This document shows, one piece after another, positions 3,721 through 35,524 of a stretch of 55,881 bases of DNA. The notes below the pieces were generated by a model that did no database searches, was not told the origin of the DNA, and saw only the letters and a program-made list of their open reading frames with translations. Numbering within the stretch: the first letter of the stretch is position 1; the number at the start of each line of letters is the position of its first letter. The position numbers and the translations under genes are program-made. Source of the stretch: Chloroflexota bacterium (lineage in GTDB: Bacteria > Chloroflexota > Dehalococcoidia > Lucifugimonadales > UBA3495); contig VXTR01000074.1 of assembly GCA_009837355.1 (NCBI GenBank), positions 1-55,881 on the forward strand, in the 5' to 3' direction.

Positions 3721-5016
3721 ATGACTGAGCGCACTGAACTGGAACGTGAATTGCTGGCGAAAGCTGCTCAATACTTTCCGGGTAACTCCACCGGCAACAC
3801 CAACTATCCCAAAGAGCTGAACTTCCTGATTAGGGAAGGTAAAGCCGGCCGTGTTTGGGATGTTTCCGGCAACGAGTACGTCGATTGGCTGATGGGCTCC
3901 GGCCCCATGATTCTCGGGCACGCGCATCCTGCCGTCACGGAGGCAGTGCGAGAAGCCGTGGGCCGTGGCTCAACCTTCTTCGCCAACAATGACCAGGCGG
4001 TGATGCTGGCTGAGGAACTTGTGCGCGCCGTACCCTGCGCCGAGAAGGTCCGCTTCACCACCAGCGGCACCGATGCCTGCTTCCAGGCCATGCGCGTCGC
4101 CCGGGCCTATACCGGAAAGGAGAAAGTCCTTAAGTTCGAGGGCGGCTATCATGGCACCAGCGATTACGCCATGATGTCCGTCTTTGCCTCCGCCAGCGTT
4201 GAGTTTCCCCAGGCCGAGACTAACAGCGCCGGCATTCCCCACGCCCTCAGCGACCTGATGCTCATCTCCCAGTTCAACGACCTAGACACCACTGCTGCCA
4301 TCGTTGAAGCTCATAAAGACGAGTTAGCCGCCGTCATCGTGGAGCCGTTGCAACGCACCTTGGCGCCCAACCCCGGGTTCCTGGACGGCCTGCGCAAGAT
4401 TACTGCCGACGCCGGCGTACTGCTCATATTCGACGAGGTAGTTACCGCTTTCCGCCTGGCTTACGGCGGCGCGCAGGAATTCTACGGTGTAACACCCGAC
4501 CTGTGCTCTGTCGGCAAAATTATGGGCGGCGGATACCCCTTGGCCGCCGTGCTGGGCACCGGTGATGTCATGTCCGTTTATGATCGTTCGGCCGTGTCAT
4601 CCGACAGTTATGTTGACCAGATTGGCACCCTGAACGGTAGCCCGGTGGCCTGCGCCGCCGGCCTGGCCACCCTGGCGGAACTCCGTAAGGACGGAGTGTA
4701 TGATCGCCTGCACGACGTGGGCGGTCGCATCCGCCAGGCCCTCGCCAACGCCTGCACCGAGGAGGGCTTTGCGATGCAGAGCGTCGGCGAGGATGCCATC
4801 TTCGACATCTATTTTGCCGATCAGCCGGTGCAGAACTTCCGCGACGGCTTGGCCGCCGACCCGGCGCCCCTGAGCAAGCTCAACGCCGGCCTGCTGCAAC
4901 GAGGCATCATCAAGTCATGGCCGCAGAAGTTCTATCCTTCCGTCGTGCACTCTGACGCCGACGTTGACCAGACCGTTGCCGCCATACGTGAAGTCGTTCC
5001 CACACTGCGCGACTAG
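3721..5016 (+). CDS. Class III aminotransferase, glutamate-1-semialdehyde aminomutase-like
   Basis: This is a fold-type I PLP enzyme of aminotransferase class III, 431 residues, most like glutamate-1-semialdehyde 2,1-aminomutase (HemL) and its paralogues. Visible features are the N-terminal PGNSTGNTNYP region, GSGPMILGHAHP, TTSGTDACFQAMRVARA, Asp238 in FDEVVTAFR (PLP pyridine-N contact) and the Schiff-base Lys266 in SVGKIMGGGYP. The ATG at 3721 is chosen because GGGAGGAG sits 5-12 bp upstream; an upstream in-frame TTG at 3691 overlaps the promoter. It stands alone between a promoter and a convergent terminator, with no haem gene nearby, so the true substrate is uncertain; many HemL-like paralogues are aminotransferases of unrelated pathways. 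Confidence 0.85.
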   Translation: MTERTELERELLAKAAQYFPGNSTGNTNYPKELNFLIREGKAGRVWDVSGNEYVDWLMGSGPMILGHAHPAVTEAVREAVGRGSTFFANNDQAVMLAEELVRAVPCAEKVRFTTSGTDACFQAMRVARAYTGKEKVLKFEGGYHGTSDYAMMSVFASASVEFPQAETNSAGIPHALSDLMLISQFNDLDTTAAIVEAHKDELAAVIVEPLQRTLAPNPGFLDGLRKITADAGVLLIFDEVVTAFRLAYGGAQEFYGVTPDLCSVGKIMGGGYPLAAVLGTGDVMSVYDRSAVSSDSYVDQIGTLNGSPVACAAGLATLAELRKDGVYDRLHDVGGRIRQALANACTEEGFAMQSVGEDAIFDIYFADQPVQNFRDGLAADPAPLSKLNAGLLQRGIIKSWPQKFYPSVVHSDADVDQTVAAIREVVPTLRD

Positions 5017-31160: not shown

Positions 31161-31184
31161 AGGGGCGGCCGGTGCGTCGCCCCT
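31161..31184. terminator. Inverted repeat between convergent genes
   Basis: AGGGGCG at 31161-31167 and CGCCCCT at 31178-31184 form a 7-bp stem between the VOC gene and the 3' end of the deacetylase gene. No T-run is present. The AGGGGCG half also appears near 32151, so it may derive from a dispersed repeat. Confidence 0.5.
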
Positions 31185-32088
31185 ACAACGTCCCCGGAGG
31201 GTAGTTTTCCAGCCACCAGCGGGCGATTTCGTCGCGGCGAGCGAACCAGACACCGGGGTGGTTGCGGGCGTAGCGCAGGAAGCGATCCAGGGCCCGGGAA
31301 CGGGCAGGACGGCCGGCGATGCGGCAGTGGAGTCCGACGGACATCATCTTGGGGTGGGTGCGGCCCTCTTCGTAGAGGACGTCGAAGGTGTCCTTGAGGT
31401 ACTCGTAGAAATCGCCGACGCTGTTGAGGCCGCCGCGCCAGAACCGGGCGTCGTTGGTCTCGAAGCTGTAGGGGAGCACCAGCCAGGGGTTGCCGCCCAC
31501 ATCGGTGTAATAGGGCAGGTCGTCGTTGAAGACGCCACTGTCGTAGATGAAGCCGCCCTCGTTGACCACCAGCTCGCGGGTGTTGACGCTGGGGCCGTAG
31601 CGGGTGAACCAGCCGACGGGACGCACGCCGGTGGTGGCGGTGAGTGACTCGACGGTCATGCGGATGGCCTCGGCTTCTTCGTCGCGGGTCTTGCTGTGGT
31701 ACTCCTCCCAGCGGTAGCCGTGGCCGCAAACTTCATGGCCACGCTCCACGACGGCGCGGGCGACTTCCGGGTTGCGCTCCATGGCCACGGCGCAGCAGAA
31801 GAAGGTGCTGGGCGCGTCGTACTTGTCCAGCAGGTTGAGGATGCGCCAGACGCCGACGCGGCTGCCGTATTCGAAGAAGGACTCGTTGAAGAGGTCCCGC
31901 TGATCGGCGGGAATGGGGGACGGCACCTCGTTGTTGGACTCGTGGCGGTCGTCGCCGTCCAGCAGGGAGGTTTCGCTGCCCTCCTCGTAGTTGACGACTA
32001 CGGAGACGGCGATGCGGGCGCCGTTGGGCCATTGGATGGTTGGCGGGTTGGGGCCGTAGCCGATGAAGTTGCGGGGTTGGTTGGTCAC
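31183..32088 (-). CDS. Polysaccharide deacetylase family protein (PuuE/allantoinase-like)
   Basis: The 301-residue NodB-fold protein resembles the PuuE branch, which includes cofactor-independent allantoinases, rather than true peptidoglycan deacetylases. It shows RIAVSVVVNYEEGSE near the N-terminus, GVWRILNLLDKYDAPSTFF, HEVCGHGYRWEEY, GWFTRYGPSVNTRELV and a late MMSVGLHCRIAGRPAR. There is no signal peptide, which points to a cytoplasmic amidohydrolase. The start is GTG 32088 with GAGGAG 8 bp upstream. It lies 23 bp behind the UGSC partner gene and is probably in that operon. Confidence 0.87.
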   Translation of the reverse strand: MTNQPRNFIGYGPNPPTIQWPNGARIAVSVVVNYEEGSETSLLDGDDRHESNNEVPSPIPADQRDLFNESFFEYGSRVGVWRILNLLDKYDAPSTFFCCAVAMERNPEVARAVVERGHEVCGHGYRWEEYHSKTRDEEAEAIRMTVESLTATTGVRPVGWFTRYGPSVNTRELVVNEGGFIYDSGVFNDDLPYYTDVGGNPWLVLPYSFETNDARFWRGGLNSVGDFYEYLKDTFDVLYEEGRTHPKMMSVGLHCRIAGRPARSRALDRFLRYARNHPGVWFARRDEIARWWLENYPPGTL

Positions 32089-32111: not shown

Positions 32112-33209
32112 CTATGCCGGCATCCGCACCGGCCTAGTTGCGGGGCGGTTGTAGGGGCGGGCCGGGCAAAAGGCCGACCTGGAGCGGGCCGGGTCGCCGG
32201 CGACTACTATCATTATGTTGTCGGGGTCGCGGACTATGGGCAGCATGGGGTCCGGTTCCGTGGGGTCTTCAACATCCAGCCACTTGGGCCAGAAGTAGGG
32301 TTCACCAGCCTCGACGTTTCGCCCGTACCGTAACTCTTTGTACCGGCGGACCCGTTCAATCGGGACCCTGGCCCGCTCGTACAGGTACAGTTGCACGTCC
32401 CGTTTCGTCCAGCCTTCCGCGTGGAGGCCGTGGGCAATCAGCGGACTGATGACCACCAGCGTATGCCCGCCGTGGATCATATTCGGATTCAGGTTGCGCA
32501 GCGAGTCGGCGAGCACCCACAGCGCGAACTCCATGCTGCCGGATCCCGCCGGATTGTTCCCCCGCGGCCCGTCTGCCGCGAACACGGTTACGCAACTCTC
32601 TTCCGGGGCGAACCCGAAATCCGCGTGTATCGGAGCCCACGGTGTGTCCACGTCCGCGCCCATGCAGTAGGAATACTTGGACGGGGAGCCCATAGTCGAT
32701 TTATCGCCGGTGTCGGGCCGGCCGTCGCCGAGGTTGATCATCATCAGACGCAGGGCGCGGCCGATGGTGGCGTTGGCGCGGCTGCCGTGTCCGAAGAGGC
32801 CGACGCCGTGATTGACACCGACCTGCTCGACCACCGGGCCGCTCACGATTACCAGCGGCGCGGCCGGATCGCTGGTTGCTTGCAGGCCGCGTATGTCCAG
32901 CACGGGATCCAACGCGGCCTCCGCCGCCGCCAGCACTATAGGCATATACTCAGGCAAGCAACCTGCCATTACCGCATTGGTGGCCGCCGCTTCCACCGTA
33001 ACCACCCCCATGCGGGGCGGCATTACGCCCAGGACTTCATCGCCGTTCCGTCCTGATGCAGCTACGAACTCGGCGACGGCGGACTCGGTGGGCGGTACGA
33101 TGGGGAGGCCGTCAGTCCAGCCGTTCTCGAAGTAGGTTTCGATGGTGTCCAGGGCGCCCTGGACGGTATCGAGGCCGGTGAGGCGCTGAGCGTTTTCCTC
33201 GGTCAGCAT
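32112..33209 (-). CDS. Unknown partner protein of the UGSC selenoprotein
   Basis: The 365-residue protein is not one I can name. It carries FENGWTDGLPIVPPTESAV near the N-terminus (after residue 27), a glycine-rich middle (VSGPVVEQVGVNHGVGLFGHG and GDGRPDTGDKSTMGSPSKYS) and cysteines in MAGCLPEY, KYSYCMGAD and EESCVTVF. I have the impression this family is encoded next to UGSC proteins in other genomes, but that was not tested here. Its ATG overlaps the end of the selenoprotein gene (ATGCTGA), so the two are translationally coupled and probably act together. The last 20 residues are Pro/Arg-rich and read through repeat-like DNA (TTGTAGGGGCGGGCC). Confidence 0.8.
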   Translation of the reverse strand: MLTEENAQRLTGLDTVQGALDTIETYFENGWTDGLPIVPPTESAVAEFVAASGRNGDEVLGVMPPRMGVVTVEAAATNAVMAGCLPEYMPIVLAAAEAALDPVLDIRGLQATSDPAAPLVIVSGPVVEQVGVNHGVGLFGHGSRANATIGRALRLMMINLGDGRPDTGDKSTMGSPSKYSYCMGADVDTPWAPIHADFGFAPEESCVTVFAADGPRGNNPAGSGSMEFALWVLADSLRNLNPNMIHGGHTLVVISPLIAHGLHAEGWTKRDVQLYLYERARVPIERVRRYKELRYGRNVEAGEPYFWPKWLDVEDPTEPDPMLPIVRDPDNIMIVVAGDPARSRSAFCPARPYNRPATRPVRMPA

Positions 33210-33790
33210 ACGCCGCTCTCGGAGCGGGCCGGCTGGGGCTCGGAGGTGATGGCGGCGACGACCTGGGCGGCGACGGCGCGGGCGCGGGCGGCGGCTTCTT
33301 CCCGGTTGCCGAGGGGGTGCGGTATGGTAACCAGCGGCAGCGTGTCCAGGTGGTTGGCGCGGGCGATGGAAGTGGCCAGGCGCACGAAGTTAGTGGTGGC
33401 GACTACGGCGGCCGGCTTGCCGACGCTCTCGAAGTTCACTGCGTCGAGCATACTGCCCGACGTGCAGGAGCCTCAAAGGGCCACGCCGGAGATTAAGAAA
33501 TCAGCCTCCTCGCCAATCTCGGCTATGAGCGACGGTTCGGCCGGGCGGGTTGAGGTGAACTTGGTGCGTAGGAGGACCCGGCTGACGCCGTACTCGGTTT
33601 CCAGCACCTCGGCGAGGCTGGCGAAGAAATAGCTGGAGGTGTCGTTGCCGTTGTCGAGCAAGCCGGCCGCCTTGCCGGCGACGCCGGGCAGTCGGGGCGT
33701 CAACTGACGCTCCACCTGCTGCACAAAGCCGGTGGGGTTGAGATAGGTTACGCGGCCGGTGTCCTGGGCTACGGCTGCTGGCGTCGTCAT
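33203..33790 (-). CDS. UGSC family selenoprotein (in-frame TGA read as selenocysteine)
   Basis: Read through the TGA at 33475-33473, this is one 195-residue protein with the motif SGVAL-U106-G-S-C109-TSGSM, the U-x-x-C redox motif of the UGSC (seleno)protein family, which is related in style to selenoprotein B of glycine reductase. The N-terminal part (residues 1-105) and C-terminal part (110-195, FESVGKPAAVVATTNFVRLA, PHPLGN) are both well formed and in the same frame. A stem-loop directly downstream fits the bacterial SECIS consensus. ATG 33790 is preferred (GAGG 6 bp upstream); ATG 33802 is possible. An extended -10 lies at 33818-33826. Conventional annotation would give two short ORFs or a pseudogene. 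Reaction unknown; probably a thiol/selenol-based reductive step. Confidence 0.88.
33442..33475 (-). promoter_or_regulatory. Predicted bacterial SECIS element
   Basis: After the TGA (33475-33473) come 10 nt, then a 9-bp stem CGTCGGGCA / TGCTCGACG (one G:T pair) closing a GTA triloop at 33453-33451. The first loop base is G, 20 nt after the TGA. From memory, the bacterial SECIS pattern asks for a stem-loop with G among the first two loop bases about 16-37 nt downstream of UGA; this fits. The hairpin lies within coding sequence, as in bacteria. Confidence 0.75.
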
Positions 33791-33817
33791 GGTGCACCTC
33801 ATCGGGAGTTTCGCCCA

Positions 33818-33904: not shown

Positions 33905-35524
33905 ATGCCGACCAATGCGACATCAGGCAAGCTAAGCCCGCTGCTTTTCCTGGAACGCAGCGCGGCCGTTTATCCGCGCCGGGCCGCCTGCATCTACAAC
34001 GGCGGGGTCACCACCTACGGGCAGTTTTACGAGCGGGTGCGCCGCCACGCCGCCGCCCTGCGCAGCGTTGGCGTTGGGGCCGGCGACCGGGTGGCATACC
34101 TGTTACCGAATTTGCCGGCGATGCTGGAGGCCAACTTTGCACCCATGGGCATCGGCGCGGTGCTGGTGGCTTTGAACATCCGGCTGTCGCCCCGGGAGAT
34201 CGCGTACATCCTCAACCACTCCGGCGCGAAGGTGCTGGTGTTTGACTCGGAGCTGGCTGACACCGTGCGCCAACTGCGGGATGACTGCCCCGGCGTGGAG
34301 ACCTACGTACAAGTGCGGGATACGGTTCCGCTGGCTGGCGACATCGACGGGCCGGAGTTCGAGCAGTGGCTGGCCGGTGTAGAGCCGCTGGCGGAGCTGC
34401 CGGGCGCGGCGTCGGAAACGGACACGGTGACCATCAATTACACGTCGGGCACCACCGGGATGCCCAAGGGCGTGGAGTACACGCCGCGGGGCGCTTACCT
34501 AAACGCGCTGGGCGAGGCGATGGAGATGGGGATGGACTGGCGGAGCGTGTATCTGTGGACACTGCCGATGTTCCACGCCAACGGGTGGTGCTTCCCCTGG
34601 GCGGTGACGGCAGTGGGCGGGACCCACGTTTGCCTGCGCCGGGTGGACCCGGCCGAGGTGTATCGGCTGATTCGTGAGGAATCGGTGTCGCACCTTTGCG
34701 CCGCGCCGACGGTGCTGACCGGGCTGTACGCCGCGCCGGAGGCAGCCTCCGCCGACCTGACCGGGTTGTCGATTATGACCGCCGGCGCGCCGCCGGCACC
34801 GCAGGTCATCCGCACCATTGAGGGCATGGGCGCGCGCATCATCCACGTGTATGGCCTCACCGAGACGTACGGCCCCTGCACCGTGGCCGCGCCGCAGCCG
34901 GAATGGGCAGCGATGGACTCGGAGGAGCTGGCGCGAGCCAAGGCCCGGCAGGGCGTGCCTTTCATGGTGTACGGAACCGGCCTGCGGGTGGTGGACGAAA
35001 GGATGACCGACGTGCCGCGGGACGGCGAAACCATGGGCGAAGTGGTGATGCAGGGTGATGCAGTGATGAAGGGATACTACGACGATCCCGACGCTACTGC
35101 CGAGGCGTTTCGGGGCGGGTGGTTCCACTCCGGCGACCTGGCGGTGTGGCATCCCGACGGGTACATTGAGTTGCAGGACCGTTCCAAGGACATCATCATC
35201 TCGGGCGGCGAGAACATCTCCAGCCAGGAAGTTGAGAAGGTCATCATGGAGCATCCCGCGGTGTTGGAGGTGTGCGTGGTCGGCGTACCCGATGACCGGT
35301 GGGGCGAAGTGCCCAAGGCGTTCGTGGTGCCGCGAGACGGCGGAGGGGTGAGCGCCGAGGAAATCATCGAGTTCACGCGCGACCGCATCGCGCACTTCAA
35401 GGCGCCCAAGAGCGTGGAATTCGGCGAATTGCCCAAGACGGCGACCGGCAAGATTCAGAAGTACATCCTGCGGGATAAGGAGTGGCAGGGCCAGGAACGG
35501 AGGATACAAGGGTCGCAGGTGTAG
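33905..35524 (+). CDS. Acyl-CoA synthetase (AMP-forming)
   Basis: The 539-residue ANL-superfamily ligase activates a carboxylic acid to its acyl-CoA through an acyl-AMP. Motifs are the P-loop YTSGTTGMPKGVEYT, MFHANGWCFPW, HVYGLTETYGP, GWFHSGDLAVWHPDGYIELQ and the C-terminal lysine Lys516 in PKTATGKIQK. The HANGW line is shared with medium-chain and methylmercaptopropionate-CoA ligases (DmdB type), but the substrate is not determined. The ATG has GGAGA 8 bp upstream. It is divergent from the selenoprotein operon and followed after 44 bp by an LLM oxidoreductase gene. Confidence 0.93.
   Translation: MPTNATSGKLSPLLFLERSAAVYPRRAACIYNGGVTTYGQFYERVRRHAAALRSVGVGAGDRVAYLLPNLPAMLEANFAPMGIGAVLVALNIRLSPREIAYILNHSGAKVLVFDSELADTVRQLRDDCPGVETYVQVRDTVPLAGDIDGPEFEQWLAGVEPLAELPGAASETDTVTINYTSGTTGMPKGVEYTPRGAYLNALGEAMEMGMDWRSVYLWTLPMFHANGWCFPWAVTAVGGTHVCLRRVDPAEVYRLIREESVSHLCAAPTVLTGLYAAPEAASADLTGLSIMTAGAPPAPQVIRTIEGMGARIIHVYGLTETYGPCTVAAPQPEWAAMDSEELARAKARQGVPFMVYGTGLRVVDERMTDVPRDGETMGEVVMQGDAVMKGYYDDPDATAEAFRGGWFHSGDLAVWHPDGYIELQDRSKDIIISGGENISSQEVEKVIMEHPAVLEVCVVGVPDDRWGEVPKAFVVPRDGGGVSAEEIIEFTRDRIAHFKAPKSVEFGELPKTATGKIQKYILRDKEWQGQERRIQGSQV

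Follow-up and report, generated by a model that had tools for sequence, protein, structure and literature searches.

An in-frame TGA codon that splits one minus-strand gene of the analysed window (55,881 nucleotides from a contig of a Chloroflexota bacterium) is almost certainly translated as selenocysteine (Sec), and the protein that results belongs to the UGSC family and is encoded next to a constant partner gene. Our explanation as a whole, in which the Sec-directed UGSC protein and this partner work as a two-part reductase resembling GrdB/PrdB, is one that we consider probable. The features concerned are listed below.

33203..33790, minus strand: gene for the UGSC selenoprotein (195 codons and a stop, TGA), with an internal TGA almost certainly read through
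33473..33475, minus strand: in-frame TGA, predicted Sec codon for residue U106; one TGA also in each of nine paralogues
33442..33462, minus strand: SECIS-type hairpin CGTCGGGCA-GTA-TGCTCGACG, with covariation in 55 Sec homologues
32112..33209, minus strand: partner gene, 365 amino acids; all nine copies in the source genome lie beside UGSC or are fused to it
31183..32088, minus strand: polysaccharide deacetylase superfamily gene (PF01522, E 4.6e-18), next downstream and a probable operon member
33905..35524, plus strand: acyl-CoA synthetase (AMP-binding; PF00501, E 3.2e-81), divergent neighbour

The minus-strand ORF that opens at 33802 (or 33790) stops at the TGA at 33475–33473, and a second ORF follows in that frame as far as the TGA at 33205–33203. 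Re-reading of the sequence confirmed the claim of the earlier note that the two ORFs share one frame and are split by this codon alone. Translation from 33790 with TGA as Sec reproduced the read-through product described there, a protein of 195 residues with U106 in the peptide SGVAL-U-GSC-TSGSM, in which residues 106–109 (UGSC) represent the [U/C]-G-S-C motif. The ATG at 33790 is preceded by GAGG 6 nt upstream and agrees with the start of the nearest relative (L068, MTT...); an alternative in-frame ATG lies at 33802. The Pfam UGSC profile PF24696 matches across the TGA (residues 16–182, E 5.6e-39), with 134.5 bits against a gathering score of 25 and positions 2–171 of 172 covered. The NCBIfam UGSC_fam equivalog NF041046 is matched over positions 2–145 of 147 (E 2.5e-28) with 99 bits, which falls below its curated naming cut-off of 125 bits. 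Judged by its sequence, the window protein is a member of the UGSC family, though one under the NCBI naming threshold.

UGSC has been known as a selenoprotein family since 2008, according to an ocean survey (PMC2398784), and the statement of the earlier note that it is a known Sec/Cys family is borne out by that source and by PF24696 and NF041046. The window gene resembles the published family, as far as these sources describe it, in sequence, motif, size and the TGA at the motif. It adds a member to a known family; no family-level difference was found, and in the window genome there are nine copies, each paired with a partner. Annotation is another matter. The expectation that standard annotation misses the protein holds for simple annotation, as on Paracoccus and Acidovorax plasmids, where the annotation of Sec-type UGSC genes (L166:6010-6513 and L164:5962-6468) gives only hypothetical proteins, split or truncated, but it fails for the family and its Sec, which are published and modelled (PF24696, NF041046).

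Several features of the gene argue for translation through the TGA. Among 14 in-frame TGA candidates of the window, defined as those passing one length and codon-bias filter, the codon at 33475–33473 ranks first in coding score both before and after the TGA; another candidate, at position 4599, had no Pfam match. The TGA is kept in the two closest relatives, which were assembled independently, and in all nine paralogues, which excludes a sequencing error. In comparison with these two relatives, substitutions on both sides of the TGA are biased towards third codon positions. Relative to the nearer one, the 78 codons after the TGA carry 45 differences at third positions and 10 and 9 at the others, and the 105 codons before it carry 57, 21 and 17, respectively. 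Because the differences after the TGA fall mainly at third positions, the protein beyond it is under selection. The aligned UGSC proteins continue past the TGA column, where 62 of 63 have Sec or Cys and none has Trp; Cys replaces Sec in homologues from some other organisms.

The source genome (3.25 Mb, 96.6% complete) encodes tRNA-Sec(UCA) (66.4 bits, anticodon TCA), SelA (556 bits, cut-off 268), SelB (354.8 bits, cut-off 242) and SelD (382 bits, cut-off 125), a set that upholds the proposal of the earlier note that the host inserts Sec. The selD gene (L016, G000:C39:7224-8144) has an in-frame TGA of its own, so that the host selenophosphate synthetase is, by sequence, probably itself a selenoprotein. 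About 30 bp upstream of the tRNA-Sec gene, and in the same orientation, is a gene for thioredoxin (L038:91-529, G000:C56). The genome also contains two PrdB-type genes, L158 (G000:C46:55752-56174) and G000:C34:5231-5644. The former stops at a TGA with the in-frame continuation TPTUPLCTHAV, and its read-through product matches TIGR04483 (E 1e-46); it is likely a selenoprotein. A thioredoxin-like protein with the peptide FWAPWUPHCRR (L183, G000:C27:7033-7152) is probably another.

The hairpin downstream of the TGA is as described in the earlier note, with a 9-bp stem, a GTA loop and the loop G 20 nt past the TGA. A loop G at about this distance fits the bacterial SECIS consensus. As a single sequence, the hairpin folds only moderately better than its shuffles (z −2.3, 4 of 200), so the case for it rests on comparison; Rfam holds no model matching it. 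In the nine paralogues, the position of the hairpin is kept and two pairs have changed on both sides. Across 55 Sec homologues from several phyla, 82.2% of the cells are paired vs 73.7% in shuffles, and compensatory changes occupy 37 cells vs 15.2. Covariation scores 0.207 vs 0.083, a value reached in 0 of 500 shuffles and lost when the pairing columns are slid. The clearest covarying pair is C-G in 29 sequences and G-C in 25. At the stem positions, the fraction paired is 0.81 across 66 Sec genes vs 0.51 across 10 Cys genes.

Two other readings of the TGA have to be set against these data. If the codon were a genuine stop, or an error of sequencing, the two pieces would be separate ORFs or a pseudogene, and the standard code does list both as separate ORFs. 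The complete Sec machinery, the nine paralogues with one TGA each, the covarying hairpin, the codon-type substitutions past the TGA and its presence in independent assemblies make this reading highly improbable. Decoding as tryptophan, or some other recoding, would likewise account for the open frame, and is more improbable still, given the composition of the TGA column and the several UGSC genes of this genome that terminate at TGA.

Translation as Sec also agrees with what is seen in other UGSC genes. Each of the nine in the source genome has exactly one TGA, at the motif, and several of them end in TGA as the stop. UGSC is present in 94 of 294 genomes of the class, with one TGA in every match among those listed. 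On plasmids, the Sec form occurs in Paracoccus and Acidovorax and the Cys form in Arthrobacter, Embleya, Variovorax and haloarchaea; on the Paracoccus plasmid, selB lies about 4 kb from UGSC.

The start codon of the partner gene overlaps the UGSC stop (ATGCTGA). The partner has no credible family in Pfam or NCBIfam; its closest homologue (93%) comes from a Chloroflexota metagenome bin and the next (71%) from a Dehalococcoidia bin, so that the host probably belongs to the latter class. Two cysteines are conserved, Cys84 in 60 of 60 sequences and Cys182 in 54 of 60. All nine UGSC genes of the source genome are adjacent or fused to one of nine partners (eight within 600 bp, one at 811 bp), and the pairing recurs on 10 of 10 plasmids, four of them haloarchaeal, and within 600 bp in 21 of 29 loci of the class, where the flanks are short. 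Among genome loci the association holds in 74 of 78, a set biased towards partner-holding loci by the use of the partner as query, the UGSC alignment being too variable for this purpose. The link extends to Rokubacteria, Proteobacteria, Bacillus, Mycobacterium and other loci, and 14 of 80 collected UGSC genes continue into a second domain, which is mostly the partner. Bacillus dakarensis (L144), a cultured host of Sec-type UGSC, has such a fusion with the partner. A fusion of UGSC with Unknown_1 was already noted in the 2008 survey (PMC2398784), and the partner is probably this Unknown_1. In the genome set, UGSC is absent within 900 bp of some 16 of the 91 partner domains; contig ends account for part of this, and the partner may therefore have further proteins to work with.

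Two variations of the locus were observed. Haloarchaeal plasmids have the order partner-UGSC-partner, with two partner genes flanking one Cys-type UGSC gene (L168:4927-7569, L169:4899-7528). In some members of the class (L058, L060, L062, L063 and L067), the partner frame opens with a thioredoxin/peroxiredoxin-like stretch (CPTC), which gave an AhpC-TSA match in one of three cases tested, below the Pfam cut-off.

Profile comparison connects UGSC with the Sec-containing subunits of amino acid reductases. GrdB-type and PrdB-type proteins of same-family relatives have reading frames stopped mid-way by a TGA. When 63 UGSC sequences were compared by hhalign with ten such read-through proteins, of which one GrdB-type and one PrdB-type were confirmed by NCBIfam, the probability was 92.8% (P 4.1e-7, 86 columns), with Sec aligned on Sec. 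The probability was still 85.5% after masking of the Sec columns, whereas the best of 100 column shuffles reached 0.7% and the reversed alignment 0.8%. The UGSC profile scored 1.6% against GrdE and 0.5% (P 0.11) against thioredoxins. Direct searches gave no GrdB/PrdB match (PF07355), neither in Pfam at E 10 for any of the nine UGSC proteins nor in NCBIfam at 1e-3 for the window protein, and no GrdB relative in the PDB. On the profile comparison with ten sequences, UGSC appears to be a remote homologue of the Sec-bearing half of GrdB/PrdB.

GrdB/PrdB (PF07355, TIGR01918, TIGR04483) is selenoprotein B of the reductases for glycine, sarcosine, betaine and D-proline. Its C-terminal half, remotely homologous to UGSC, has Sec at the corresponding position; the two also share a motif of the UxxC type and a constant second protein. 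In contrast to GrdB, UGSC has no detectable N-terminal GrdB domain, and in contrast to the Grd enzymes its partner is not GrdE-like: the partner profile gave no signal against GrdE (0.3%) or GrdB, the subunits compared. Any likeness to Grd/Prd therefore covers one subunit only. GrdA and GrdE were not found in the source genome. Three same-family relatives have glycine/betaine-reductase-type genes, in which GrdB and GrdE are adjacent and GrdA contains a TGA (L170-L176, L184-L186).

The AlphaFold2 model of UGSC (mean pLDDT 93.6) has alternating strands and helices with five strands; U106 is placed just ahead of a helix, and the motif Cys in the first turn of the helix that Sec begins. Comparison with known structures by Foldseek and VIA-align led to nothing more specific than generic folds of the Rossmann, flavodoxin and receiver-like types; thioredoxin was absent from the matches listed, which is not decisive. 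The predicted fold is Rossmann-like and, from its order of strands and helices, likely non-thioredoxin. In the 2008 survey, UGSC was guessed to be probably thioredoxin-like (PMC2398784). The profile scores and the alternating strand-helix model speak against this guess. Thioredoxin-like selenoproteins share with UGSC a UxxC motif ahead of a helix but differ in their predicted strand-helix order and in having no profile similarity to it. The partner was also predicted with good confidence scores (pLDDT 91.3), and no good structural match was found for it. Its best Foldseek matches were class I fumarate hydratases (7xky, E 6.8e-5), followed by barbiturase-type cyclic amide hydrolases, at TM-scores of about 0.2–0.3 and VIA-align Z of at most 4.3. 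When the UGSC and partner profiles were searched against PDB sequences, no match had an E-value under 0.19.

The product of the gene downstream of the partner is closest to the allantoinase PuuE model (TIGR03212, 351.5 bits, below the cut-off of 424.6). Around the divergent acyl-CoA synthetase gene, a relative (L068) has genes of like size and orientation, and an LLM-type monooxygenase gene lies in the window on the strand opposite to UGSC. An allantoinase-like hydrolase, an acyl-CoA ligase and an LLM-type monooxygenase in the window hint at catabolism of a small organic compound. The neighbours of UGSC across up to 40 loci vary widely and show no dominant substrate theme; the 140 neighbour proteins include nine TctC-type receptors, six CoA-transferases III and four LLM monooxygenases. 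An Arthrobacter plasmid with a Cys homologue has the gene order trxB-trxA-partner-UGSC. Strong adjacency to thioredoxin and its reductase was seen in this one locus only, and Pyr_redox_2 matches in 3 of the 140 neighbour proteins.

Given the shared Sec half, the constant second protein and trxB/trxA in Arthrobacter, we favor a two-part reductase. GrdB is described in a review as responsible for substrate binding and amine release, with its homologue PrdB serving D-proline reductase, and the electrons of glycine reductase come from thioredoxin. Sec insertion at the TGA is almost certainly directed by the downstream hairpin and the SelA, SelB, SelD and tRNA-Sec of the host. By analogy with GrdB/PrdB, UGSC and the product of the next gene, often fused, would then form such a reductase. 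The partner would bind and activate a small organic substrate, which the selenolate of UGSC (or the thiolate of its Cys forms) would attack, leading to reductive cleavage. Sec and the motif Cys would then form an Se–S bond, to be reset by thioredoxin and thioredoxin reductase. We infer the reaction, the role of the partner and the electron donor, and to such a GrdB/PrdB-like mechanism we assign about an even chance.

Two other functions for the pair were weighed. UGSC could be a general thiol/selenol oxidoreductase, such as a disulfide reductase or peroxidase, with the partner as its protein substrate or scaffold. A UxxC motif that opens a helix, together with trxA/trxB genes adjoining UGSC in one plasmid, would suit such an enzyme, but the thioredoxin profile scored 0.5% vs 92.8% for GrdB/PrdB, an alternating sheet of Rossmann-like type is predicted, and nine paralogues, each with its own partner, fit substrate-specific enzymes better; we regard this function as rather unlikely. 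A non-redox role is more doubtful still. Here UGSC and its partner would resemble a hydro-lyase or hydrolase, the partner being distant kin of class I fumarate hydratase or of cyclic amide hydrolases, and Sec/Cys would serve as a ligand or nucleophile. The leading Foldseek matches of the partner, its two conserved cysteines and the allantoinase-like gene downstream point in this direction. However, the low TM-scores and VIA-align Z values mean that the fumarate hydratase match may be due to chance, and a hydro-lyase gives no reason for Sec.

Such selenoprotein families are still described as largely uncharacterised in a 2026 review (PMC13188914). The passages on UGSC considered from this review and from the 2008 survey, both in the open-access literature (PMC2398784, PMC13188914), state neither the constant partner nor its one-to-one expansion with UGSC to nine pairs, and neither the kinship with GrdB/PrdB nor the likely non-thioredoxin fold. 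On the reductase reading, UGSC and its partner may tentatively be viewed as a widespread but unrecognised family of selenoenzymes (or cysteine enzymes) made of two components and sister to the glycine and proline reductases; their substrate subunit would be of a new kind, and some Chloroflexota would have at least nine substrate-specific copies. The constant partner, the remote kinship with the Sec subunit of amino acid reductases and the cultured hosts of the Cys form, among them Arthrobacter, Cupriavidus and Candidimonas, make the function of UGSC testable. Around ten UGSC genes are present in some genomes of the class, which means that an uncharacterised reaction may account for a real share of the selenium used there.
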